Shown here one piece after another: positions 35,784-48,954 of a stretch of DNA of 64,000 nucleotides. The notes under the pieces were generated by a model. The model had not been told where the DNA came from, did no database searches, and was given only the letters and a program-made list of their open reading frames with translations. The stretch spans positions 583,770 through 647,769 of the forward strand of contig NZ_JAOWPT010000001.1 of assembly GCF_025753855.1 (NCBI RefSeq), read 5' to 3'. The translations under genes and the position numbers were made by a program. The DNA comes from Mesorhizobium sp. ZC-5 (GTDB lineage: Bacteria; Pseudomonadota; Alphaproteobacteria; Rhizobiales; Rhizobiaceae). The first letter of the stretch is position 1, and every line of letters begins with the position of its first letter.

Positions 35784-36572
35784 CTACCGGTCCGTGCGGC
35801 CGGAATCGTGATGTTCGCCCGGATCGTCGCGCCTCCCCCCGGCAAAGCTGCGGGCGCCCAGAAATCGCCGGGTGCCATCGATCGCGTCATAAACCTGCCG
35901 CCGAACTTCGCGGCCGTGATGACGCAGCGCTTCCGCAGCTGCGTCGGCATTGCGGTCGCGTACGAGGCGGACGATCTCGCTGTGATCGCGATGCGCGGCC
36001 TCTCTGCCTTCCACCGTGTTGGCAACCAGCCAGCGGACGCGCATCGTCCGCGCTATGACATCCTGGACGGCATCGCGGAGAAAGCGGTTTCTTGAAAGCT
36101 CCGCCAGGCGAACGTGCACGTCCAGGCCTATCTCGAACCAGCTTTCCGGCGTGAATTCGGTGAGGCCGCGATCGATTGTCTCCTGTATGGCATCGAGGTC
36201 GCCCGGCATCGCCCTCGCACAGGCGAGGCGGATCGCCTCACCCTCGATCAGTTCGCGATATTCGAAGCTTTCGTCCAGCTCTTCGAGGTCGAAGGGCGCT
36301 ACCGCATAGCCCCGCGTCGTCCGCAAGATCAGGCCTTCATGAATGAGCTGCATCAATGCCTGGCGAATGGGTGTCCTGGAGGCACCATAGCCGGCCTGCA
36401 AGGCGCGCTCGGAAATCACTTCTCCCGGTGCCAGCTTCAGCGAAAGGATGTCGGCCCGGATACGCGACAGCATGCGGTTGCCGAGCGGCTCCTGCCTGGC
36501 GTGGGGCAGCGCGCCGGTCTGCCTGCGGTCCGCTTCAGCGTCCGCCCTGATGGAAGTCGCACGATGGGCCAT
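35784..36572 (-). CDS. GntR family transcriptional regulator, FCD type
   Basis: 262 residues from ATG at 36572 with GGAGGG four bases upstream (an ATG at 36584 is also possible). The N-terminal winged helix is recognised from NRMLSRIRADILSLKLAPGEVISE and GASRTPIRQALMQLIHEGLI (about residues 32-84). The C-terminal FCD ligand domain holds RELIEGEAIRLA and the metal or ligand residues D, H and H (e.g. LDVHVRLAELS, HRDHSEIV). It probably controls tctCBA downstream and the divergent lyase/CoA-transferase genes in response to an organic acid. Confidence 0.9.
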   Translation of the reverse strand: MAHRATSIRADAEADRRQTGALPHARQEPLGNRMLSRIRADILSLKLAPGEVISERALQAGYGASRTPIRQALMQLIHEGLILRTTRGYAVAPFDLEELDESFEYRELIEGEAIRLACARAMPGDLDAIQETIDRGLTEFTPESWFEIGLDVHVRLAELSRNRFLRDAVQDVIARTMRVRWLVANTVEGREAAHRDHSEIVRLVRDRNADAAAEALRHHGREVRRQVYDAIDGTRRFLGARSFAGGRRDDPGEHHDSGRTDR

Positions 36573-36591
36573 TGACCCTCCCATTCATGAC

Positions 36592-36613
36592 GGTATACCA
36601 AGATGGTCGACCA
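36592..36613. promoter_or_regulatory. Paired palindromic operator for the GntR regulator (predicted)
   Basis: GGTATACC (36592-36599) and TGGTCGACCA (36604-36613) are both perfect palindromes in the 68-bp gap between the divergent gntR and lyase genes. FCD GntR regulators bind T-GGT-C/A-ACCA type sites. Position and form fit autoregulation and control of both arms. Confidence 0.6.
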
Positions 36614-36640
36614 ACTCAACCGTTTTGTGAGGAGGACGGG

Positions 36641-37606
36641 ATGGACCGGAAGAGCAGACCCGAGGAGATGGGCTTCCCACCTCATGCGAGCGTCATCGAA
36701 GTGGGGCCGCGTGACGGACTTCAGTCCGAACCGGATTTCGTGCCGACCGAAGAAAAGATCGCGCTCGTCAACGGCCTGATCGATGCCGGCATTCGTCACC
36801 TGGAAGTCACGTCGTTCGTTTCGCCACGCGCCGTACCGCAGATGCGTGACGCGAGCGACGTGCTGTCGGGCATCGACCGGACCAGGGGAGCCGTGCTGAC
36901 GGCGCTGGTGCCCAACGCGCGGGGCGCCGAGCGGGCGATCGAGGCCGGCGTCGACGCCATGGTCGTTTTCATGTCGGCGTCCGCGAGTCACAATCGCAAG
37001 AACGTCAACCGTTCCCGGGAAGAATCCCTCGCTGGCTTTGGCGAGGTCTGCCGCATCGCTGAAACCTCCGGCACGGCTGTATATGGCGCTATCGCCACTG
37101 CTTTCGGTTGCCCGTTCGAGGGAGATGTGTCGGTCGAGGATGTCGTGGACATCGCGCGGCGCTATCGGGACATGGGCATAACGACTGTGTCGCTCGGCGA
37201 CACCACCGGAATGGCCACGCCGCCTCTGGTGCGCGAGCGCTGCAGCGCGCTTCGCGCGGCGGTGCCGGATATCGACATAGCGCTCCACTTCCACAATACG
37301 CGCGGCGTTGGACTGGTCTGCGTCTATGCAGGGCTTCTGGAGGGCGTGACACGCTACGAAGCCAGCATCGGCGGGCTTGGCGGCTGTCCGTTCGCGCCCA
37401 AGGCGACCGGCAACATCTGCACGGAGGATCTCGTCTATATGCTCGACGAATGCGGCGTCGAGACCGGCGTCGATTTGGGCAAGCTTATCGCCGTCGCCCG
37501 GCGAGCCGAGGGAACGATCGGGCGCACGTTGCCCGGCCAGTTGATGAAGGCCGGCCCGCGGCTCGAACTCCATGCGATGGATGCGGTTGCCACCGCAAAC
37601 GGCTGA
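36641..37606 (+). CDS. Hydroxymethylglutaryl-CoA lyase-like (HMGL family) enzyme
   Basis: 321 residues from ATG at 36641 behind GGAGG. The HMGL-type TIM barrel is shown by EVGPRDGLQ (about residues 20-28, catalytic Arg and metal Asp), ALHFHNTRG (about 211-219, metal His pair) and GGLGGCPFAPKATGN (about 243-257, catalytic Cys loop). It cleaves a 3-hydroxyacyl-CoA such as HMG-CoA or citramalyl-CoA. With the adjacent CoA transferase and the TTT uptake genes, it probably degrades an imported branched dicarboxylic acid. The exact substrate is not fixed. Confidence 0.9.
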   Translation: MDRKSRPEEMGFPPHASVIEVGPRDGLQSEPDFVPTEEKIALVNGLIDAGIRHLEVTSFVSPRAVPQMRDASDVLSGIDRTRGAVLTALVPNARGAERAIEAGVDAMVVFMSASASHNRKNVNRSREESLAGFGEVCRIAETSGTAVYGAIATAFGCPFEGDVSVEDVVDIARRYRDMGITTVSLGDTTGMATPPLVRERCSALRAAVPDIDIALHFHNTRGVGLVCVYAGLLEGVTRYEASIGGLGGCPFAPKATGNICTEDLVYMLDECGVETGVDLGKLIAVARRAEGTIGRTLPGQLMKAGPRLELHAMDAVATANG

Positions 37607-37609
37607 CGC

Positions 37610-38821
37610 ATGGGAGATCTGCCGGCGCAAGGGAAGAGGCCTCTCGAAGGCATCAGGGTGATCGACCTGACACGCGTTCTGTCGGGGCCGTTCTGCACGA
37701 TGATGCTGGGGGACATGGGCGCCGAGGTGATCAAGGTCGAAACCGGGCGAGGCGACCCGATCCGCGAGCAGGGTACGCTGCGCGATGGCTTTTCCTTCTA
37801 CTATGCTTCGTTCAATCGCAACAAGAAGTCGATCGTCCTCGACCTGCGCTGCGAGGAGGGGAGGTCGGTCCTGGCCAAACTGATCGCGTCGGCCGACGTA
37901 CTCGTCGACAATTTCCGGCCCGACGTGCTGGCGCAGATGGGTTTCGACAGGGAACGGCTGAGCGAAATCAATCCAAGGCTGGTGACAGCCAATGTCAACG
38001 GGTTCGGCAGCGACGGCCCTTATGTCGATCGCCCGGCTTTCGACTTCATCGCGCAGGCCATGAGCGGCCTGATGAGCGTTAACGGGTACGACAAAGGCGA
38101 GCCCCTGCGGTCCGCCCAGCCCATCACCGATCTCGTCGCCGGGCTCTATCTCGCCTTCGGCATCACCGCTGCCCTGCGCGCTCGAGACATAAACGGCCAT
38201 GGCCAGCATGTCGAATCGGCGATGGTGAATGGTGCCATCAGCATGATGGCCTATCTCGCCTCGGAATTCTTCGTCACGGGCAAGCTTCCGGAGCGCACCG
38301 GCAATGACCATCCCTTGGTCGCGCCCTACGGCCTTTTCCGAGCCTCCGACGGCGAGATCGCGATCGCACCGTCCAACGATACAATCCTGCGCCGGTTTCT
38401 CTCGGCGATCGGCATCGAGCACCTAATGGACGATCCGCGCTACGACACCAACGAAAAACGTTTCGCGCGACGTGGCGAACTGCACGAACTGATCGATGCA
38501 AGGCTCGCGAGCGGTACTCAGGAGCGCTGGATTGCAATGCTCAACGCGGCAGGCGTTCCATGTGGCCGGGTGCAGGTCCTCGATGAGGTCTTTTCCGATC
38601 CGCAGGTGCTCGCACAGGAAATGACGATCGACGTCGATCATCCCGGGCATGGCGTCGTTCGCATGTTGGGATTTCCGGTCAAACTCCACGGCACCCCGTG
38701 CGATATACGTCTGCCGGCTCCGGAACTCGGCGAACATACCGATGAAGTGCTGGCGTCGGTGGGCCTGACGGCCGAGGAAATCCGCATAGTCAAGGAGCGG
38801 GGCGTGGCTCGCGCGCGCTGA
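37610..38821 (+). CDS. Class III CoA transferase (CaiB/BaiF family)
   Basis: 403 residues. The family core includes GIRVIDLTRVLSGPFCTMML near the N-terminus, GAEVIKVE (about residues 36-43), the catalytic Asp region RPAFDFIAQAMSG (about 139-151) and GNDHPLVAPYGLF (about 223-235). Such enzymes move CoA between acids through an aspartyl-CoA ester. The start is 3 bases after the lyase stop, so the two are coupled. It probably activates the acid that the lyase then splits; homology to mammalian SUGCT (which uses HMG, glutarate and itaconate) is a plausible but untested reading. Confidence 0.9.
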   Translation: MGDLPAQGKRPLEGIRVIDLTRVLSGPFCTMMLGDMGAEVIKVETGRGDPIREQGTLRDGFSFYYASFNRNKKSIVLDLRCEEGRSVLAKLIASADVLVDNFRPDVLAQMGFDRERLSEINPRLVTANVNGFGSDGPYVDRPAFDFIAQAMSGLMSVNGYDKGEPLRSAQPITDLVAGLYLAFGITAALRARDINGHGQHVESAMVNGAISMMAYLASEFFVTGKLPERTGNDHPLVAPYGLFRASDGEIAIAPSNDTILRRFLSAIGIEHLMDDPRYDTNEKRFARRGELHELIDARLASGTQERWIAMLNAAGVPCGRVQVLDEVFSDPQVLAQEMTIDVDHPGHGVVRMLGFPVKLHGTPCDIRLPAPELGEHTDEVLASVGLTAEEIRIVKERGVARAR

Positions 38822-38991: not shown

Positions 38992-40062
38992 TCAGGCTAT
39001 CAGCCTCCACATCTGCACCCGACCTGCACCACGGAGTTCCATTTCCGGAATAAGGTCGCAGGCGAACTCCTGCCCAAACAACTTGTGCGTTGCATCCGAA
39101 ATCCGGATTTCATCGGGTTCGGCGGACGTCTGGATGCGTGCGGCGAGATTGACCGTGTCTCCCCAAAGATCATAGGCAAAACGCCTCTTCCCTATGACGC
39201 CCGCGACGATTGGGCCTGAATGAATCCCAATCCTCAGTTTTAGCGGTTCTCCCCCGAAGTTTTCGTCCGCACCCGCCTGGCGCAGCTCAAGTGCAAATTG
39301 GGCAAGGGCGTCTGCGTGACCGGGTCGAGACAGCGGCAGACCGGCGACCACCATGACGCAATCGCCGATTGTCTTGATTTTCTCGCACCCGTGGACCTCG
39401 GAAAGCAGGTCCGCTGCCTTGAAGAAGCTATTCAAGATGGCAAGGGTCGTTTCTGCCCCGACGCTTCGCGCCTTTTCCGTGAAGCGCACGATGTCGGCGA
39501 AAAGCACGCTCACCTCTGCGTGATTGTCCGCAATTTGTTCCTGCGTCTTCAGGCGCTCCGCGATAGACGCCGGAAGGATGTTGAGGAGCAGACTTTCGGA
39601 GCGTTGGTATTCCCGGGACAACCCCTCCTGGCTCTTCCTCAAGGCCTCGTTTGCAGACTCCAATTGCTCGTTGAGTTGATGCTCTCTCTCCCGCAGAAGC
39701 GTCGTTTCATAGGCCTTCTGCTGAATCCGCTGCTTGTTATTATGTTCGGCAGTGGCGTCGAGGAAGAGCAGCCAAATGCATGCATTGTCGGAAAAAAAAT
39801 GAAGGTCTGTTACGCGCCCGTTGGGCAGTTCGACCATCGGTATGTGGAAAGGCAGATCCGTGTAAGGCAGCAAACCTTCAATGAACGCAAGCTGCCCGGC
39901 AACTGGTTCGCCGATGCGAAGTGATGAGAGGCCATAATGTTCGACCCGGCCTCCCTTCCCGGCGACGAGAAGTCGATCGTCAATCTTCACATACGCAATA
40001 GAGCGATCGTTGTAGACGAAACTGCATAGCCAGTTTCTGACTTCATCCGGAGGTTCATCCAT
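38992..40062 (-). CDS. Class III adenylate cyclase with N-terminal sensor and coiled coil
   Basis: 356 residues without membrane helices. Residues 1-110 form an uncharacterised PAS-like sensor, about 115-165 a long coiled coil (REREHQLNEQLESANEALRK), and 175-356 the cyclase domain. The metal Asp residues are in FADIVRFT and IGDCVM; KIKTIGD supplies the adenine-selecting Lys and YDLWGDTVN the Asp, so ATP is the likely substrate, giving cAMP. It is the last gene of a four-gene minus-strand set, 3 bases after the GTPase stop, so it is the likely output of the cassette. Confidence 0.9.
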   Translation of the reverse strand: MDEPPDEVRNWLCSFVYNDRSIAYVKIDDRLLVAGKGGRVEHYGLSSLRIGEPVAGQLAFIEGLLPYTDLPFHIPMVELPNGRVTDLHFFSDNACIWLLFLDATAEHNNKQRIQQKAYETTLLREREHQLNEQLESANEALRKSQEGLSREYQRSESLLLNILPASIAERLKTQEQIADNHAEVSVLFADIVRFTEKARSVGAETTLAILNSFFKAADLLSEVHGCEKIKTIGDCVMVVAGLPLSRPGHADALAQFALELRQAGADENFGGEPLKLRIGIHSGPIVAGVIGKRRFAYDLWGDTVNLAARIQTSAEPDEIRISDATHKLFGQEFACDLIPEMELRGAGRVQMWRLIA

Positions 40063-40065
40063 AGC

Positions 40066-40560
40066 CTATTTGGAAACCAATGAAGCAAGTTGAATAAACG
40101 CGTCATCTACCGACTCGCCCGAAAGCGCGCTTGTCAGATAGATCTGATATCCGGATTGTCTCATTTCGTTGATTGCATCGTCCGAGATTGTCCACTGATC
40201 CGCCAGATCGGATTTGTTGAGCAGCAACACGAAAGGCATGGCGCCGAATTCGGCCTCGGTTCGCTCGCGCAGCGTGAGCGCCACCGTCAGAGTGGCAGCG
40301 CGGGTGCCGTCGGCGACAAGCACCAGTCCGGTCGCGCCCCGCACATAGCTGAGGCGGAAAGAGCCGATGTCGTCTTCGCCAGCCAGATCCCAAAGGATCA
40401 GATCCACCGTCTTGTCCGAGAGTACGACGCTCTTCTTGTCAATTTTTACGCCGACCGTGGTCAAGTAGGTTTCCGAAAAGATGCTTTGCACAAATCTGCG
40501 AACAAGGCTCGTCTTTCCGACTGCGAACCCGCCCAGCATGCAGATCTTCTTTTGCAACAT
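40066..40560 (-). CDS. Ras/Rab-like small GTPase
   Basis: 164 residues, a single minimal G domain. G1 is GGFAVGKTS (residues 10-18), the switch I Thr is in LTTVGVKI, G3 is WDLAGED (about 57-63), G4 is NKSD (about 113-116) and G5 SAL. The eukaryote-like WDxAGx layout is striking; the catalytic Gln of Ras (Q61) is replaced by Glu, predicting slow intrinsic hydrolysis and dependence on a GAP. There is no C-terminal Cys for lipidation. It lies between the repeat/OmpA membrane protein and the adenylate cyclase and is almost certainly co-transcribed with both. Confidence 0.9.
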   Translation of the reverse strand: MLQKKICMLGGFAVGKTSLVRRFVQSIFSETYLTTVGVKIDKKSVVLSDKTVDLILWDLAGEDDIGSFRLSYVRGATGLVLVADGTRAATLTVALTLRERTEAEFGAMPFVLLLNKSDLADQWTISDDAINEMRQSGYQIYLTSALSGESVDDAFIQLASLVSK

Positions 40561-40577
40561 CTCGGGGTCCGTTCGTG

Positions 40578-43286
40578 CTAGTCGAAGTTTACACTGACCG
40601 AAACTCTGCGATTGACGGAGCTCCCGGTCTGGGCTTTTTCAGTCTCCGCCGGCTCAAAAGTTCCTGCGCCACGTACCAGAAGCAGTTCAGGATCGACGCC
40701 GCGCTTCTTGAGAAGTGCGCGAACGGTTTCCGCGCGGGCGACGCTGATTGACAAATTGGTGGTTTCACGGCCCGTCGTGTCCGAATGGCCCGTCAACATG
40801 AAGCGCGCGGTAACACCGGCCTTGCGGGCGTCCGTGGCCAACTCCTTCAACTGATTTGCCAATCTGTCGAGAACCGGCAATTGCTCCGGTCCCGGCACAG
40901 CCTCGCCGGAATCGAAGAGAATATCGACCGCTTGGATGCCCTCCCTCAAATGAACCAGTTCCTTAGGGGTCAACTCACGCAAATCGGAGATTTCCAGAGT
41001 GAGTCCGTCCGCGGCCAACTGTTGAGAGGCGATGCGCGCCCGATTTATCCAGGCGGCAGGAGCCTCGCCCACGACAACGATGCGATCTTTGGCGATCAAA
41101 AGCCGAGCCGTTTTCGGTGGAGTGAGCGATGCTGTCAGCCGTTTCAGCACGAACTTCGGATCAAGGCTCTGATAGAATTGCCACTGCGCATGAACACGGG
41201 CAGGATCAACTCCCGTTCCCGACAGCAGAGCCTGCGGGTCGGCGGCCTGCGGATCTCTCAGGCCGGAAATGTAGAAATGTCCGCCCTTCGCCGTTTGTTG
41301 CGCGACGATGATTCCCGGCTGGGCCTCAAGTCGCGACACATAAGTCTGCCAGTGCTCCGCCGCGCGTGCTTCGGGGCTCACATCACGAACCTTGGAGATG
41401 TCGAATGCGGGGCCGCCTGCCGAAAGCTCTCGGGCCGCTGCGCGCGCCCGGTCTATCCAGGTATCGGGAGCCTCGCCCTCGGCAACGATGCGATCCCCGA
41501 CGATCGAAAGCCGGACCGTTTTCGGCGGGGTGAGCGATGCTGTCAGTCGTTTCAGCACGAACGTCGGATCAAGGCTCTGATAGGGTTGCCACTGCGCATG
41601 AACGCGGACCGGATCAACTCCCGTTCCCGACAGCAGAGCCTGCGGGTCGGCGGCAAGCGGGTCCCTCAGGCCGGAAATATAGAAATGTCCGCCCCTCGCC
41701 GTTTGTTGCGCGACGATGATGCCCGGCTGGGCCTCAAGTCGCGACACATAAGTCTGCCAGTTCTCCGCCGCGCGTGCTTCGGGGCTCACATCACGAACCC
41801 TGGAGATGTCGAATACCGGGCCGCCTGCCGGAAGCTGTCGGGCCGCTGCGCGCGCGCGGTCTATCCAGGTGTCGGGAGCTTCACCCTCGGCAACGATGCG
41901 ATCCTCGACGATCGAAAGCCGAACCGATTTCGGCGGGGCGAGCGACGCTGTCAGCCGCTTCAGCACGAACTTCGGATCGAGGCTCTGATAGAATTGCCAC
42001 TGCGAATGAACACGGGCAGGATCAACTTCCGTTCCTGACAGCAGAGTCGCCGGGTCGGCGGCAAGCGGGTCTCTCAGGCCGGAAATGTAGAAATGTCCGC
42101 CCCTCGCCGATTGCTGGGCGACGATGATGCCCGGCTGGGCTTCAAGTCGCGACACGTAGTCCTGCCAGCGTTGGCCTGATTGCCAGGAGAGGAAGAGCCA
42201 ACTGCCCGCCGCAATCAGCACGAGCGTGACTGCAGCCACCGCCAGCCACGGAAACGCCTGAGTTGAATCTTCCTGCTTCAGTTCAACGCAGGTCTCCAGC
42301 GTCGCCCTTACGCCGGCTAGTTGCGTACTGTCGCCGTCGAACTTCTCCAACGCCCCGGAGGATTCCGAGTGGATGCGGAGCAAGGCATCGCGAACTATTT
42401 CATGCAGTTCCTCGGGTGGGTTTCCGCGGATCACCGCGACCAGGGTCGCAAACGGTCCGACTTCCGACCAGAGGCGGAGTTCCCCAAAACGGATAGTGTC
42501 TAGGGCGCCCTGTTCTTTTTCATTGAACGAGTCTTTTGCAAAATCCTGAATCGCACTGAGCATCGAGGAAATGAGCTGAGGGTCTTCGCTCGTTGCATTC
42601 TCGGCAGTCGCGTGCGCGATCAACAGCCCGGAATTGCGATGAATGAGGAAGACATGCTCCACACGATAGATGAGCGAATGCTTGAGTACGACTTCTGCGA
42701 AACTCGTTCCCGTTCTCCACGCTTCGAGCCTCCACTTAAGTCCACGCCAGGTGAAGATGTACCTCAAGGACTCATTCAGAGACTGAAAGGTCTGGTCGAT
42801 TTTCTCGCCGATCGACTTTCGAATCGCTGGCAGGAACAGCGGGTACAATATGTCCGTGAGAGTGGCCGGGTCCTTCTGGATGGATCGTTGGACCGACCTC
42901 TCGACAACTGGCGAAAAGGCCTCGCTCAGCTGCGCTTGAGGCGCATGCGTGACTGCGCGAGGCAGCACATCCCCCACAGCGGCAGCATGCTGTTCTGGTA
43001 CGTCCAACAGCTGCGTGACCCGCGAAAGCTCCGAAATTTCGCGGCCAACAAGAAGCTGACGCAGCGTTTCCATGCGAGGATCGGCGGTAGGGATTCCGAC
43101 GAAACTGGCGCGGTAGACCGGATCGACATTCCGAGCAATTTCGACCAAAAGACCAGCCAGAGCCTCTCGATCAATCTCATTGTTGTTCGAAGCTCTTCGT
43201 AAAAGGCTGATTGGGTCAGCGGTCAACTCGATTTCCAGGCGCGTTCCAAGTTGTTCTTGTTGCCGACAGGATCCTGATTCAGGCAT
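40578..43286 (-). CDS. Membrane protein: longin/roadblock-like N-domain, TM helix, three 136-aa repeats, OmpA C-domain
   Basis: 902 residues. Residues 1-345 appear cytosolic. Within them, 205-305 read strand-strand-helix-strand-strand-helix (YRVEHVFLIHRNSGLLIAHA, LISSMLSAIQDFAKD, ELRLWSEVG..FATLVAVIRG), which could be a roadblock/longin-type GTPase partner; this is inferred. A single membrane helix lies at about 346-367. Then come three near-identical repeats (374-509, 510-645, 646-781), each with WxxYVSRLEAQPGIIV and a PPKxxRL..DRIV..GEAP segment resembling BON-like periplasmic modules. The end (about 785-902) is an OmpA peptidoglycan-binding domain with TGHSDTTG and NLSISVARAETV. The start is uncertain: the ATG used overlaps the upstream gene by 64 bases; a TTG at 43226 would overlap its stop. 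Confidence 0.85.
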   Translation of the reverse strand: MPESGSCRQQEQLGTRLEIELTADPISLLRRASNNNEIDREALAGLLVEIARNVDPVYRASFVGIPTADPRMETLRQLLVGREISELSRVTQLLDVPEQHAAAVGDVLPRAVTHAPQAQLSEAFSPVVERSVQRSIQKDPATLTDILYPLFLPAIRKSIGEKIDQTFQSLNESLRYIFTWRGLKWRLEAWRTGTSFAEVVLKHSLIYRVEHVFLIHRNSGLLIAHATAENATSEDPQLISSMLSAIQDFAKDSFNEKEQGALDTIRFGELRLWSEVGPFATLVAVIRGNPPEELHEIVRDALLRIHSESSGALEKFDGDSTQLAGVRATLETCVELKQEDSTQAFPWLAVAAVTLVLIAAGSWLFLSWQSGQRWQDYVSRLEAQPGIIVAQQSARGGHFYISGLRDPLAADPATLLSGTEVDPARVHSQWQFYQSLDPKFVLKRLTASLAPPKSVRLSIVEDRIVAEGEAPDTWIDRARAAARQLPAGGPVFDISRVRDVSPEARAAENWQTYVSRLEAQPGIIVAQQTARGGHFYISGLRDPLAADPQALLSGTGVDPVRVHAQWQPYQSLDPTFVLKRLTASLTPPKTVRLSIVGDRIVAEGEAPDTWIDRARAAARELSAGGPAFDISKVRDVSPEARAAEHWQTYVSRLEAQPGIIVAQQTAKGGHFYISGLRDPQAADPQALLSGTGVDPARVHAQWQFYQSLDPKFVLKRLTASLTPPKTARLLIAKDRIVVVGEAPAAWINRARIASQQLAADGLTLEISDLRELTPKELVHLREGIQAVDILFDSGEAVPGPEQLPVLDRLANQLKELATDARKAGVTARFMLTGHSDTTGRETTNLSISVARAETVRALLKKRGVDPELLLVRGAGTFEPAETEKAQTGSSVNRRVSVSVNFD
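40944..42167 (-). repeat. Three tandem 408-bp repeats within the OmpA-family gene
   Basis: Units are approximately 42167-41760, 41759-41352 and 41351-40944. The period of exactly 408 bases is seen from the recurring segment taagtctgccag (41341, 41749, and a variant at 42157). Nucleotide similarity between units is high over long stretches, so duplication was recent or is maintained by gene conversion. The end of the last unit has diverged. Confidence 0.9.
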
Positions 43287-43882
43287 TTCGCAATTTCGAC
43301 GAACAAGCCCGCCAGAAGATTTCGATCGGTTTTGACGTTGCTCAGATCGGAGAACATCTTTTCGATCATGAGCTGAACACCTTCAATCTTCTGCTTGATT
43401 TCCTCACGCAGCAGTTGATCGCTCCGGTTTATCCGGTCCGCGACGTCCCGGTCCATTTCGCTCAGCTGGTCGGACAATGCGCGTACCTGCTTCTCAAGTG
43501 TTTGATTCTGTTCGCGAAGGTTTCTGTCAATTTCCTTGTCGGACTCGGCTCTCGCCTCTTTTTCGCTCCGCAATTGCGCAGCGAGTGAGTCGACCTGCTT
43601 TTTCGAGTTTGACTCGTACATTTCAAGATTGCGCTTGGCCTCGGATTCGACATCCTTGAACCGTTGCAAGAACCGTTCTTCAAGCTTGGAAAAACGGCGG
43701 TCGTAGTCCTGCATCTGATTGCCAAAAAGCAGGTCACGGATCTTATCGACACCTACCGCGTCGCCTGAACCCCCGTTCTCGCGAACCTGGGATGCTATCA
43801 AACTCAGCCCGTTTCCATCGGCGAGACTTGTCACTTCCGCCTTATTCGCTGAAGAAGATGTATTCGCAGCTTCCTTGGCCAT
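43223..43882 (-). CDS. Coiled-coil protein, first gene of the GTPase cassette
   Basis: 219 residues. The N-terminal 35 residues look disordered, then VDKIRDLLFGNQMQDYDRRF (about 45-64) leads into a long coiled coil (about 60-170). The C-terminus carries DRNLLAGLFVEIAK (about 186-199), closely similar to DREALAGLLVEIAR at residues 39-52 of the next gene's product. No membrane segment is seen. It may be an adaptor that binds the same partner as the membrane protein; this is an inference. Upstream is an AT-rich stretch suitable for the operon promoter. Confidence 0.75.
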   Translation of the reverse strand: MAKEAANTSSSANKAEVTSLADGNGLSLIASQVRENGGSGDAVGVDKIRDLLFGNQMQDYDRRFSKLEERFLQRFKDVESEAKRNLEMYESNSKKQVDSLAAQLRSEKEARAESDKEIDRNLREQNQTLEKQVRALSDQLSEMDRDVADRINRSDQLLREEIKQKIEGVQLMIEKMFSDLSNVKTDRNLLAGLFVEIAKCLNQDPVGNKNNLERAWKSS

Positions 43883-44492: not shown

Positions 44493-47279
44493 TCATTCAG
44501 CGGCTTCTTGCCGTGCGACAGGCTCGACGCGCGCGGCGCAATATTTGAACTCCGGAATCTTGCCGTAGGGGTCGAGCATCGGGTTGGTGAGCTTATTGGC
44601 CGGGCTTTCATTGAAGCAGAACGGCATGAATACCATGCCTTCGGCTACCTCGCGGTCGGCGCGCAGGATGGCTTCGACCGTTCCGCGGCGCGTCTCGACC
44701 GCAATCATGTCGCCCTGCCGCAGGCCGCGCCGCCGGATCTCATACGGGTTCATCGCTGCGATGCCGTGCGGCTCGATAGCATCGAGCACGCCCGCGCGGC
44801 GCGTCATGGCGCCGGTATGCCAGTGCTCGAGCAGGCGGCCCGTGGTCAGCACAAGCGGGTATTCAGCATCCGGCACCTCGTCGGGCGGTAGAAGGTCGGC
44901 CGCCACGATGCGGCCGCGGCCGTCCGAGGTGGGGAAGCCCGACGAGAAGACAATCTCGTTGCCCGGCGTGTCCGGCCCGTCGGCGGGATAGATCACCGAG
45001 CCCTCACGCTCGATGCGCTCCCAGGAGATATGCTTCAGCGACGGCATGACACCTGCCATCTCGGAATAGACATCCGAGACATGACTGTAATTCCAGCCAA
45101 GGCCGAGCCGATTGGCGAGTTCGACGATCAGCGCCCAATCCTGGCGCGCCTCGCCTGGCAGGTCGAGCGCCGGACGGCCGATCTGTACCTGCCGGTTGGT
45201 GTTGGTATAGCTGCCGGTCTTTTCGGCATGGGCCGACGCCGGCAGCACGACGTCGGCGTGCCATGCCGTCTCGGTGAGGAAGATGTCTTGGACGACGAGA
45301 TGGTCGAGCATGGCGAGCGCAGCACGGGCGTGCGTCTGGTCGGGATCGGACATCGCCGGGTTCTCACCCATGATGTACATGCCCTTGATCTCGCCGTCAT
45401 GGATGGCGTCGATGATCTCGACCACGGTCAGGCCGCGCTTCGGGTCGAGCGTCTGGCCCCAGAAGTTCTCGTAACCGGCGCGGATGTCGACGTTCTCCAC
45501 CGATTTGTAATCGGGGAAGTACATCGGGATGAGGCCCGCGTCGGAGGCGCCTTGCACATTGTTCTGCCCGCGCAGCGGGTGCAAGCCGGTCCCCGGCCGG
45601 CCGATATGGCCGGTGATCAGCGCCAACGCAATCAAGCAGCGCGCATTGTCGGTGCCGTGGGTGTGCTGGGAAATGCCCATGCCCCAGAAGATGATCGAGC
45701 GCTGCGACGTCGCGTAGGTGCGCGCGACCTGGCGCAGCACGGAGGCCTCGATATCGCAGACCTCGGCCATCGCCTCAGGGGAAAAATCCTTGACCTTGGC
45801 TTTCAGCGCCTCGAAGCCCGAGACGTTGGCCTGTATGTACTGCTCGTCGTAGAGTTTCTCCTCGATGATGACGTGGATCATCGCATTCAGCATGGCGACG
45901 TCGCTGCCGGCCTTGAAGCGCAGCGAATGCGTTGCGTGGCGCATCATGTCCTGGCCGCGCGGGTCCATGATGATCAGTTTGGCGCCGCGCTTGGCGGCCT
46001 GCTTGAAGAACGTCGCCGCCACCGGGTGGTTGGTGGTCGGGCGCGCCCCGATGACGATGATGCATTCGGCCTTCAGCGCGTCGTTGAACGGTGCCGAGAC
46101 CGCGCCCGAGCCGACGCCTTCCATCAACGCCGCGACCGAGGAGGCGTGGCAAAGGCGCGTGCAATGGTCGACATTGTTGGTTCCAAAGCCCTGCCGCACC
46201 AGCTTCTGGAACAGGTAGGCCTCTTCGTTGGAGCCTTTGGCGGAGCCAAAGGCAGCCAGAGCCTGCCCGCCGCTGGTATCGAGGATGCGCTTCAGCCCGA
46301 AGGCAGCGCGTTCCAGCGCCTCTTCCCAGCTCGCTTCACGAAACACCGTGAGCGGATCGACGCCGCGCAGATCGAGATCGCCCGCTTTCGGCGCATCGTC
46401 ACGGCGGATCAGCGGCTTGGTCAATCGCTCCGGCGACATTGCGTAGTCGAAGCCGAAACGTCCCTTGACGCAGAGGCGGTTCTCGTTGGCATAACCGTTG
46501 CGGCCATCGACCTGAACGATGCGGTTGTCTTTGACGGCGACACTGGTCTGGCAGCCGACGCCGCAAAAAGGACAAAGCGTGTCGACGACCCTGTCGAACT
46601 CCTGGATGACCCGGGTTTTGCCGGCTTCGTCCATCAGCGACTTTTCGTAAAGCGCACCGGTAGGGCAGGCCTGCACGCATTCGCCGCAGGTGACGCAGGT
46701 GGAAAGCCCCATCGGATCATGCATGTCGAAGACGGGAACCGCATGGTTGCCGCGCTCGGCCATGCCGATGACGTCGTTGACCTGAACCTCACGGCAGGCC
46801 CGCACACAGGCGCCGCAGGTTATGCAGGCATCCAGATTGACGGCGATGGCCGGGTTGGAGACGTCGAACTCCGGTGCCACGCCGTCGGCGAATTTGGAAC
46901 CATAACGATCTCCCGAAATCCCCATCGAACCGGCCCACTGCCAGAACGCCGATTGGTTATCCGGACCGTCATTTGCCGGCCGCATATTGCTGGCGAGAAG
47001 CTCGAACACCATTTCGCGCGATTTTTCGGCGCGCTCGGTATCGGTCTTGACGACCATGCCGGCGGTCGGCTTGCGGATGCAGGAAGCCGCCAGCACACGC
47101 TCGCCTTCGATGTCGACCATGCAGGCGCGGCAGTTGCCGTCGGGCCGGTAGCCCGGCATGTCGACATGGCACAGATGCGGGATCTTCGTGCCTTCGCGCT
47201 TGGCCACCTCCCAGATAGTCTCGCCTTCGGCAGCGGTGACCGATTTTCCGTCCAGGGTGAATGCGATCTGTTTCGTCAT
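44493..47279 (-). CDS. fdsA: NAD-dependent formate dehydrogenase, catalytic (alpha) subunit
   Basis: 928 residues from ATG at 47279 (MTKQIAFTLD). N-terminal NuoG-like [2Fe-2S] domain (HLCHVDMPGY..NCRACMV..ASC), two ferredoxin-type [4Fe-4S] sets (CITCGACVRAC and CVTCGECVQAC), then the Mo/W-bis-MGD enzyme domain with its own cluster (CPFCGVGC, later Cys in RLCVKG). The active-site residue is Cys in RLCHASS, not selenocysteine, with the conserved His after it. It oxidises formate to CO2. fdsB stops one base upstream. No delta subunit follows, unlike the Rhodobacter fdsGBACD operon. Confidence 0.93.
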   Translation of the reverse strand: MTKQIAFTLDGKSVTAAEGETIWEVAKREGTKIPHLCHVDMPGYRPDGNCRACMVDIEGERVLAASCIRKPTAGMVVKTDTERAEKSREMVFELLASNMRPANDGPDNQSAFWQWAGSMGISGDRYGSKFADGVAPEFDVSNPAIAVNLDACITCGACVRACREVQVNDVIGMAERGNHAVPVFDMHDPMGLSTCVTCGECVQACPTGALYEKSLMDEAGKTRVIQEFDRVVDTLCPFCGVGCQTSVAVKDNRIVQVDGRNGYANENRLCVKGRFGFDYAMSPERLTKPLIRRDDAPKAGDLDLRGVDPLTVFREASWEEALERAAFGLKRILDTSGGQALAAFGSAKGSNEEAYLFQKLVRQGFGTNNVDHCTRLCHASSVAALMEGVGSGAVSAPFNDALKAECIIVIGARPTTNHPVAATFFKQAAKRGAKLIIMDPRGQDMMRHATHSLRFKAGSDVAMLNAMIHVIIEEKLYDEQYIQANVSGFEALKAKVKDFSPEAMAEVCDIEASVLRQVARTYATSQRSIIFWGMGISQHTHGTDNARCLIALALITGHIGRPGTGLHPLRGQNNVQGASDAGLIPMYFPDYKSVENVDIRAGYENFWGQTLDPKRGLTVVEIIDAIHDGEIKGMYIMGENPAMSDPDQTHARAALAMLDHLVVQDIFLTETAWHADVVLPASAHAEKTGSYTNTNRQVQIGRPALDLPGEARQDWALIVELANRLGLGWNYSHVSDVYSEMAGVMPSLKHISWERIEREGSVIYPADGPDTPGNEIVFSSGFPTSDGRGRIVAADLLPPDEVPDAEYPLVLTTGRLLEHWHTGAMTRRAGVLDAIEPHGIAAMNPYEIRRRGLRQGDMIAVETRRGTVEAILRADREVAEGMVFMPFCFNESPANKLTNPMLDPYGKIPEFKYCAARVEPVARQEAAE

Positions 47280-47280
47280 C

Positions 47281-48954
47281 TCAAAGATCATCCCGGAAAT
47301 GCGTCAGCAGGTGGTTTACTGGATTGGGCGCAGCCTGGCCAAGTCCGCAAATGGACGCGTCACGCATGACCATTTCAAGGTCGCGTATCGCGGTGTCGTC
47401 GGAAGGGCCCCGCTTCCTGAGCAAGGTCACCATTTTTTCAGTCCCTTCGCGGCAAGGTGTGCACTGGCCGCAACTCTCATGCTTGAAGAACTTCAGCAGG
47501 TTGACGGTCACGTCCTTTATGCTGTCGGCCTGCGAGAACACGACGATCGCATGGGAACCGACGAAAGCGCCTTGCCTGGCGAGCTCGCCGCCGAAATCGA
47601 GTTCGATGTCGCCCATCGAGGCCGGCAGTATGCCACCCGAGGCGCCGCCCGGCAAATAAGCCTTGAACTCGTGGCCTTCGGCCATGCCGCCGCAATAGTC
47701 GTCGATCAGTTCGCGCACCGTGACGCCGGCCGGCGCCAGCTTGACGCCCGGGTTTTTCACCCGGCCGGAAACAGACCAGGACCTGATCCCGGGATGGCCG
47801 GGCTTGCCCTGCGCCGCGAACCACTCGGCGCCCTGCTCGACGATGTCGCGGATCCACCACAGCGTCTCGACATTGTGGTTGAGCGTCGGACGGCCGAACA
47901 GGCCGACTTCGGCAATGTAGGGGGGCCGATGCCGTGGCAGGCCGCGCTTGCCTTCGATGCTCTCCAGCATCGCGCTTTCCTCGCCGCAGATATAGGCGCC
48001 GGCGCCGCGCCGCAACTCGATGAAGCCGGGTTTTACAATGCCTGCCGTCTCGAGGGCCGCGATCTCGGTGCGCAAAATGGCGAGCACAGCCGGGTACTCG
48101 TCCCGCATATAGTAATAGATGCGCTCCGCCTCGACGGCATGAGCGGCGATCAACGCGCCCTCGAAGGTCCGGTGTGGGTCCTTCTCGAGGTAAATGCGGT
48201 CCTTGAACGTGCCGGGCTCGCCTTCGTCGCCATTGATCGACATCAACCGCGGGCCTGGATAGGAGCGGACAAAGCCCCATTTCTTGCCGGCCGGGAAGCC
48301 GGCGCCGCCGAGGCCTCGCAGGCCTGCTTCCTGCATCGTTTCCATGATGGCCTCGACGCCCAGCGCGCCGTCACGCACCTTCTGCAGCGTTTGATAGCCC
48401 CCGGCAGCGCGATAGGCCGCCAAGCCGATATAATCGGGCACAACGACCTTGGTCTTGCCTTCGCGGGCCATATCCAGCAGGCCCTTGCTGCTGGCGTGAT
48501 CGACTTCGCGATCGCCGATGCGCGCGGCAGGCGCGCCAGCGCAGCGGCCCATGCAGGGCGCGCGCACGACGCGAATTGCTTGCGGATCGGCGCTGGCCGA
48601 AAGCTCAGCGAATACATCCTCGGCGCCCGCCAACGCGCAGCTTATCGAATCGCAGACCCGGATCGTCAGCGGCGCGGGTTTCGCCTCGCCTTCCTTGACC
48701 ACATCGAAATGGTCGTAGAACGTTGCAACTTCATAAACTTCGGCCTGCGCCAGCCGCATCTCCTCGGCAAGGGCGCGCAGATGGGCAGCCGACAGGCATC
48801 CGTAGCGATCTTGGATCAGATGCAGGAACTCGATCAGCAGGTCGCGATGCCGGGCGCGGGTGCCCAGAAGTTCGCGGACCTCGGCGAGCGCGCCATCGTC
48901 GAGCGCCCGTCCTTTCGGTCCGCGATCGCGTGCTTGCCGTCCCTGCATCGTCAT
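47281..48954 (-). CDS. fdsB: Formate dehydrogenase NAD-binding subunit, NuoE-NuoF fusion
   Basis: 557 residues from ATG at 48954, which has GGAGGAG upstream. Residues about 30-150 are NuoE-like (24 kDa) with the [2Fe-2S] Cys in CDSISCALAG and CMGRCAGAP. Residues about 175-557 are NuoF-like (51 kDa) with GLRGLGGAGFPAGKKW for NADH/FMN and the [4Fe-4S] motif SCGQCTPCREG. It passes electrons from the catalytic subunit to NAD+. In Fds enzymes these domains are often separate (FdsG and FdsB); here they are one chain. A TGGTAT..ATACCA inverted repeat lies 69 bases before the start. Confidence 0.93.
   Translation of the reverse strand: MTMQGRQARDRGPKGRALDDGALAEVRELLGTRARHRDLLIEFLHLIQDRYGCLSAAHLRALAEEMRLAQAEVYEVATFYDHFDVVKEGEAKPAPLTIRVCDSISCALAGAEDVFAELSASADPQAIRVVRAPCMGRCAGAPAARIGDREVDHASSKGLLDMAREGKTKVVVPDYIGLAAYRAAGGYQTLQKVRDGALGVEAIMETMQEAGLRGLGGAGFPAGKKWGFVRSYPGPRLMSINGDEGEPGTFKDRIYLEKDPHRTFEGALIAAHAVEAERIYYYMRDEYPAVLAILRTEIAALETAGIVKPGFIELRRGAGAYICGEESAMLESIEGKRGLPRHRPPYIAEVGLFGRPTLNHNVETLWWIRDIVEQGAEWFAAQGKPGHPGIRSWSVSGRVKNPGVKLAPAGVTVRELIDDYCGGMAEGHEFKAYLPGGASGGILPASMGDIELDFGGELARQGAFVGSHAIVVFSQADSIKDVTVNLLKFFKHESCGQCTPCREGTEKMVTLLRKRGPSDDTAIRDLEMVMRDASICGLGQAAPNPVNHLLTHFRDDL

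Follow-up and report, generated by a model that had tools for sequence, protein, structure and literature searches.

A conserved four-gene cassette of Mesorhizobium sp. ZC-5 as a probable Group 1 Rup GTPase operon with a class III adenylate cyclase output

How might a bacterium pass a signal from its cell envelope to a second messenger through a small GTPase? The question is raised by four genes on the minus strand at positions 38992–43882 of a 64,000-nucleotide stretch of the Mesorhizobium sp. ZC-5 genome (contig NZ_JAOWPT010000001.1, positions 583,770 to 647,769; the whole stretch is called the window below), which encode a coiled-coil protein, a membrane protein with an OmpA domain, a predicted Rab-like GTPase and a class III adenylate cyclase. 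The list of open reading frames (ORFs) returned all four with the locations, strand, spacing (3 and 17 bases) and single overlap given in the original prediction, a note made from the letters of the window that had read the genes as a route from envelope state to cyclic AMP (cAMP). We give roughly a two-in-three probability to the reading that makes this cassette a signalling operon of a Group 1 Rup GTPase with cAMP output, in which a longin-regulated GTPase sets cyclase activity. Gene order, domain content, co-occurrence and exchange of outputs between relatives are observed and form its basis, together with longin and Rab folds and a PAS-like order of elements taken from predicted models.

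Group 1 Rup was described computationally by Wuichet and Sogaard-Andersen in 2014 (PMC4316618). As given in excerpts of that paper, members of the group lack Gln in the G3 motif, and three kinds of gene are conserved beside them. One encodes a coiled-coil protein. The product of the second has a domain of unknown nature, after which a membrane helix and OmpA often come. The third encodes the output protein, which is typically a diguanylate cyclase/phosphodiesterase or histidine kinase and has an invariant Gln in its N-terminal region. The same excerpts name a member from Mesorhizobium loti and state that no Rup protein had been experimentally characterized at the family's description. The window's cassette shares all four gene types, the missing G3 Gln and the invariant Gln of the output protein; it differs in having a class III adenylate cyclase as its output and in the longin fold predicted here for the unknown domain (in the main text of the paper 'cyclase' occurs once and 'longin' not at all). 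The earlier claim that such a pathway was uncharacterized therefore does not hold for the gene set, the M. loti member or a diguanylate cyclase output, all in the excerpted 2014 description, and stands as regards experiments: a literature search of titles and the first lines of abstracts returned no experimental study of Group 1 Rup or of a longin domain in it. The system has thus been known from sequence since 2014, and the adenylate cyclase output and longin assignment extend Group 1 Rup.

The GTPase gene (40066–40560) encodes 164 amino acids of the Ras family (Pfam, 1.3e-27), in agreement with a Rup-type GTPase, with the P-loop GGFAVGKT, the G3 motif WDLAGED and the motifs NKSD and TSAL. 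Its G3 keeps the Asp and, a point absent from the original prediction, lacks the catalytic Gln. The Gln after DxxG is also missing from the GTPases of all 120 loci that we collected by searches seeded with the window's GTPase or its alignment, as in Group 1 Rup; these loci are mostly from Mesorhizobium and include at least four pairs that are the same record (L022/L096, L023/L098, L024/L085 and L167/L105). The predicted fold is Rab-like, and when the GTPase was modelled as one chain with the N-terminal domain of the output protein, the VIA matches of the model were GTPases over its residues 1–168. Judged from its sequence, the protein is Rup/Rab-like and not MglA. The analogy to MglA–MglB of Myxococcus, in which a small GTPase likewise has a roadblock/longin-superfold protein as its partner, had been part of the original prediction and does not carry over: the window's GTPase lies on the Rup/Rab branch with its G3 Asp retained, whereas the G3 of MglA lacks this Asp (PMC4316618, in excerpt), its partner has a predicted longin order of elements and is membrane- and wall-anchored, and a Robl_LC7 (roadblock) profile search of the whole genome gave 0 matches.

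This partner is encoded by the second gene (40578–43226), a single-pass protein of 882 amino acids. Its location was as predicted, but the start is probably TTG 43226 instead of ATG 43286 (which would give 902 amino acids), because relatives begin there with similar residues; the TTG overlaps the stop of the first gene as TTGA. The protein has one hydrophobic stretch, a transmembrane helix at residues 325–347 (42186–42254; hydropathy maximum 2.37 over 19 residues), followed by three putatively periplasmic 136-residue repeats starting at residues 353, 489 and 625 (40947–42170; 73% identity at period 136 in self-comparison) and, from about residue 770, an OmpA-type peptidoglycan-binding domain (40608–40916; Pfam OmpA 1.5e-10 at residues 791–893 of the 902-residue reading). 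The lengths of relatives, about 749, 885 and 1,015–1,021 amino acids, would correspond to two, three and four copies of the repeat; at four loci (L046, L047, L060 and L090) the OmpA frames are interrupted and were left as they are. The protein matches the Group 1 Rup neighbour with its conserved domain, membrane helix and OmpA, and the conserved domain is present in 110/120 loci.

The N-terminal part has no Pfam match above the curated cut-off, and its assignment comes from the predicted structure of residues 186–320 (42267–42671), in which strands 188–196 and 202–207, helix 216–233, strands 244–247, 250–256 and 260–267, and helices 272–294 and 300–315 follow each other in the longin order of strand-strand-helix-three strands-two helices. 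A structure search with this model matched solved longin domains, and TRAPP, Mon1–Ccz1 and Fuzzy–Inturned complexes were among the best matches, with 5–16% sequence identity to the domain among the VIA matches listed. We therefore predict a longin fold for this domain; the original prediction had suggested a longin/roadblock-like domain here, and on this point it was borne out. A roadblock fold was considered and is not preferred, both packing helices coming after the last strand in the model and target-normalized TM-scores (Foldseek) being higher for Sec22b (0.56–0.67) than for MglB chains (0.39–0.51). By Foldseek E-value, however, MglB ranked fourth, and the top-ranked Mon1–Ccz1 chain has a TM-score of just 0.42; the absence of MglB from the 50 VIA matches listed excludes nothing. 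Profile searches with the domain's family gave weak signals (one of 42 members matched Fuz_longin_1 at 0.0038 and one Robl_LC7 at 0.07), and a PDB sequence search with the longin-domain alignment gave no match. According to the literature excerpted here, the way in which GTPases are bound is similar for longin and roadblock domains, and a bacterial longin domain would not be wholly new, as a table in PMC4917890 marks 'Longin/Roadblock' jointly as present in bacteria. The eukaryotic longin Rab exchange factors, TRAPP, Mon1–Ccz1 and Fuzzy–Inturned, likewise pair a Rab-fold GTPase with a longin fold, here a predicted one; in the window, by contrast, the longin domain shares its chain with a membrane helix and OmpA.

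The fourth gene (38992–40062) encodes the output protein of 356 amino acids. Its catalytic domain (39001–39528) matches PF00211 Guanylate_cyc at 5.9e-47 (160.1 bits against a cut-off of 21.9), and its closest solved structures are AC9 and a bacterial cyclase. Residues D190, D234, K230, D298, N305 and R309 are in register with AC9, so activity on ATP would be expected; we take D190 and D234 to be the metal-binding Asp residues, K230 and D298 the adenine-binding Lys and Asp, and N305 and R309 to act in catalysis. Between the catalytic part and the N-domain (residues 1–132, 39667–40062), residues 125–171 resemble the HNOBA region known from guanylate cyclases at 23.1 bits, just below the cut-off of 23.4. 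The N-domain shows a PAS-like order of elements in the AlphaFold2 (AF2) model of the GTPase–N-domain fusion, as read by DSSP; a search for a common profile linking it with the longin protein was null.

Where this N-domain occurs ties the enzyme to the GTPase. Across 398 genomes of the phylum, each of its 40 matches (in 39 genomes, at 1e-8) had a GTPase match no more than 200 bases away, which suggests that the cyclase is the output of the GTPase; to this extent the cAMP end-point of the original prediction is retained. The longin and output N-domain profiles were made from loci found via the GTPase, and relatives living apart could be missed. The stop of the GTPase gene and the start of the cyclase gene (40063–40068) are separated by exactly 3 bases in 77/94 loci while the stop varies between TAG, TAA and TGA, a constancy that points to translational coupling and not to read-through.

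The enzyme behind the N-domain also changes between relatives. The window's cyclase type is 79–83% identical in three close relatives compared, and in L109, L110, L112 and L150 the cyclases are 26–29%, the N-domains 38–47% and the GTPases 64–67% identical to those of the window; one family has a third cyclase type (28–34% identity). Pfam identified SpoIIE phosphatases (L114, L115 and L119), histidine kinase-receiver proteins (L116, L151 and L152), HD domains of HD-GYP appearance (L121 and L159) and GGDEF-EAL proteins (L154 and L156) as outputs elsewhere, and in a more distant DxDG subclass kinases (L026, L029, L036 and L039) and a LuxR-type regulator (L035). In a tree of 33 GTPases, hand-picked so as to be diverse and to have known outputs, 7 changes are required for the seven output labels compared with 21.2 in shuffles, which indicates that outputs are mostly inherited and occasionally replaced. 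An N-domain that stays constant while cyclases, SpoIIE or histidine kinase-receiver enzymes change behind it is what would be expected of an input domain. The distant subclass (L026–L041 and L166) mostly has a DxDG GTPase, shorter coiled-coil genes, another output N-domain and kinase or LuxR-type outputs, and in L032–L035 its longin and GTPase genes are divergently oriented.

Genomic surveys bear on whether the four genes belong together, as the original prediction had supposed. Order-wide, 21/249 genomes, including that of the window, have a GTPase match at 1e-10, and in all 20 others a homologue of the longin-OmpA protein is encoded close to the GTPase. Named genomes were scanned as well, and the best 80 of 419 GTPase relatives were kept, with close relatives in Mesorhizobium; among these 80, the outputs matched both N-domain and cyclase part in 71 cases and the N-domain alone in 6, the remainder being one cut by a contig end and two without an N-domain match in a single-sequence search. 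Among the 120 loci, 110 have the longin-OmpA gene, 106 the coiled-coil gene and 94 the output N-domain, and nine of the ten that miss the longin-OmpA gene have <1.2 kb of upstream DNA, leaving L160 as a real exception. The order coiled-coil protein, longin-OmpA protein, GTPase, output is kept in complete loci from Mesorhizobium, Rhizobium, Rhodopila, Hyphomicrobium, Variovorax and Desulfobacterales. The co-occurrence that had been anticipated is thus widespread, and a chance neighbourhood of four unrelated genes is refuted by order and linkage kept across families and in two phyla while the flanking DNA differs.

The first gene (43223–43882) encodes 219 amino acids with long, charged, helix-like stretches, judged by eye to form a coiled coil, and no transmembrane stretch by hydropathy; against Pfam it gave sub-threshold matches and none above the curated cut-off. 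It agrees with the coiled-coil neighbour of Group 1 Rup, the coil being read from sequence.

In the 398 genomes, the GTPase was found in 50 and the longin protein in 50 (both at 1e-15), with 48 having both where 6.3 would be expected under independence; the formal probability of 6e-57 is a guide only, as the genomes are related and the profiles were built from GTPase-linked loci. Forty-eight of the 52 longin matches lay within 4 kb of a GTPase match, and of the other four, two come from genomes that have no GTPase match at threshold, one is on a different contig from its GTPase, and one is a fragment, also on a different contig. Distances between GTPases and between longin proteins were correlated in the same 33 rows (Mantel correlation 0.97, 0/2,000 permutations), as expected of genes inherited together.

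From these data we infer, as follows, what the stimulus would be, which way the signal would run, and that the system would include exchange-factor activity and control over the cyclase. The OmpA protein would be anchored in the inner membrane and grip the cell wall. Its cytosolic longin domain would most likely load or hold the Rab-like GTPase, by analogy to what longin proteins do for eukaryotic Rabs, and the GTP state of the GTPase would set cyclase activity via the PAS-like N-terminal domain, with the coiled-coil protein perhaps acting as a bridge or scaffold. The fuller proposal, of a bacterial Rab-like GTPase with a dedicated membrane-bound longin exchange factor, that is, a Rab–longin pairing used as an envelope-to-second-messenger switch with exchangeable outputs, is tentative and we would not bet on it at even odds.

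Some of the evidence fits a different division of labour, in which the output protein is a GTPase-activating protein (GAP) whose invariant Gln completes the GTPase active site, hydrolysis resets the cyclase and the longin protein is a membrane scaffold and not an exchange factor. That an output-protein Gln might complete the active site was proposed in the 2014 paper (PMC4316618, in excerpt). Q114 and Q115 of the N-domain are present in 36/36 aligned relatives, in agreement with the invariant Gln of Group 1 Rup, and a strict motif search found the Gln in 91/94 output proteins, the rest being variants that keep it (L163 and L152) and a contig end (L111). The Q115 position is further kept in 25/26 rows when the set is widened to include GGDEF-EAL, HD-GYP and histidine kinase outputs, the exception being misframed, and all 120 GTPases have the complementary G3 without Gln. 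In the model, however, the Gln sits on a long helix toward the catalytic part and could equally serve signal transfer, and no interface was predicted: the fusion of GTPase and N-domain reached a predicted local distance difference test (pLDDT) score of 86 and a predicted template modelling (pTM) score of 0.59 with undefined orientation. With its two-residue linker and mostly unpaired rows this model neither disproves nor supports contact, and we rejected it as evidence of a direct contact. We consider this alternative doubtful.

Less probable still is that the GTPase does not control the cyclase and that the cassette is an envelope or polarity scaffold like MglA–MglB, in which the GTPase positions the complex and the cyclase is constitutive or recruited for place only. 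The combination of coiled coil, wall anchor and GTPase would resemble polarity systems, and the missing interface in the fusion model suits this view; the restriction of the N-domain to the neighbourhood of GTPases (40/40) while the enzyme behind it differs speaks against it.

Several results also weigh against the signalling operon itself. A longin profile search with the window's own N-domain gave no match, and the output N-domain showed no Pfam PAS match, no PDB sequence match and a PAS probability of 0.1% in profile comparison; the undefined orientation in the fusion model counts here as well. In L160 a GTPase with an HD-domain output has no longin gene within 4.9 kb upstream, among the 398 genomes the GTPase occurs with no longin match in two (G398 and G486) and the longin protein with no GTPase match in two (G281 and G475), and the Mantel correlation would equally follow from common descent of the genomes. 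Class III cyclase matches number 24 in the 6.34-Mb genome, and the cassette's cyclase may add little to total cAMP. With 23 further cyclase matches and 7 cNMP-binding matches, the latter possible cAMP receivers, cAMP signalling in this genome is likely present but crowded.

L159 and L160 are loci of an additional GTPase, whose output has an HD domain (HD-GYP-like), in two genomes that also carry the full cassette; L160 lacks the coiled-coil gene too in the 4.9 kb upstream, and in L159 the contig ends. At seven loci (L075, L078, L082, L083, L084, L092 and L107), an extra cyclase-like gene of 480–481 amino acids lies on the opposite strand, 35–135 bases past the cassette cyclase.

Two other bacterial arrangements invite comparison. 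Actinobacterial conservons (Cvn), in the account excerpted from PMC4316618, are also operons of a GTPase, a partner and a signalling enzyme, but with an MglA/MglB-type GTPase and roadblock protein and a histidine kinase placed on the input side. Rhizobial cAMP signalling (CyaD/CyaK, CyaC and Clr of Sinorhizobium) likewise joins adenylate cyclases to cAMP receptors in a related host; the excerpts consulted mention cyclases that have CHASE2 domains or are linked to respiration, and no GTPase.

The G+C content of the cassette is 57.2% compared with 62.4% for the window, whose lowest 4.9-kb stretch (56.6%) begins at 39501, and it is below that of the flanks in 53/57 rhizobial loci. The DNA flanking rhizobial cassettes forms many clusters, none in common with the window; given the low G+C relative to varied flanks, the cassette looks as if it may move as a unit. 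The upstream neighbour in the window (44493–47291) encodes a formate dehydrogenase alpha subunit (TIGR01591, 710 bits), and past the cyclase gene (36572–38821) there are two genes, one of CoA-transferase family III and one HMGL-like. Promoter and terminator scans of the cassette gave nothing above shuffled sequence.

If the signalling operon reading is true, the cassette would connect the cell wall with cAMP through a Rab-like switch, in a compact bacterial pathway whose N-domain evolution has moved between enzymes. With the predicted longin fold, a formerly unknown domain acquires an activity that can be tested, namely exchange on the GTPase, and the cytosolic parts of the cassette are amenable to tests with purified proteins. 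A longin fold beside a Rab-like GTPase bears on the origin of the eukaryotic Rab–longin pairing, which may predate eukaryotes, since Rab, Ran, Ras and Rho are very similar to Group 1 Rup and horizontal transfer has been proposed (PMC4316618, in excerpt). For the bacteria that carry it, the cassette suggests a way in which they may report on the state of their envelope.
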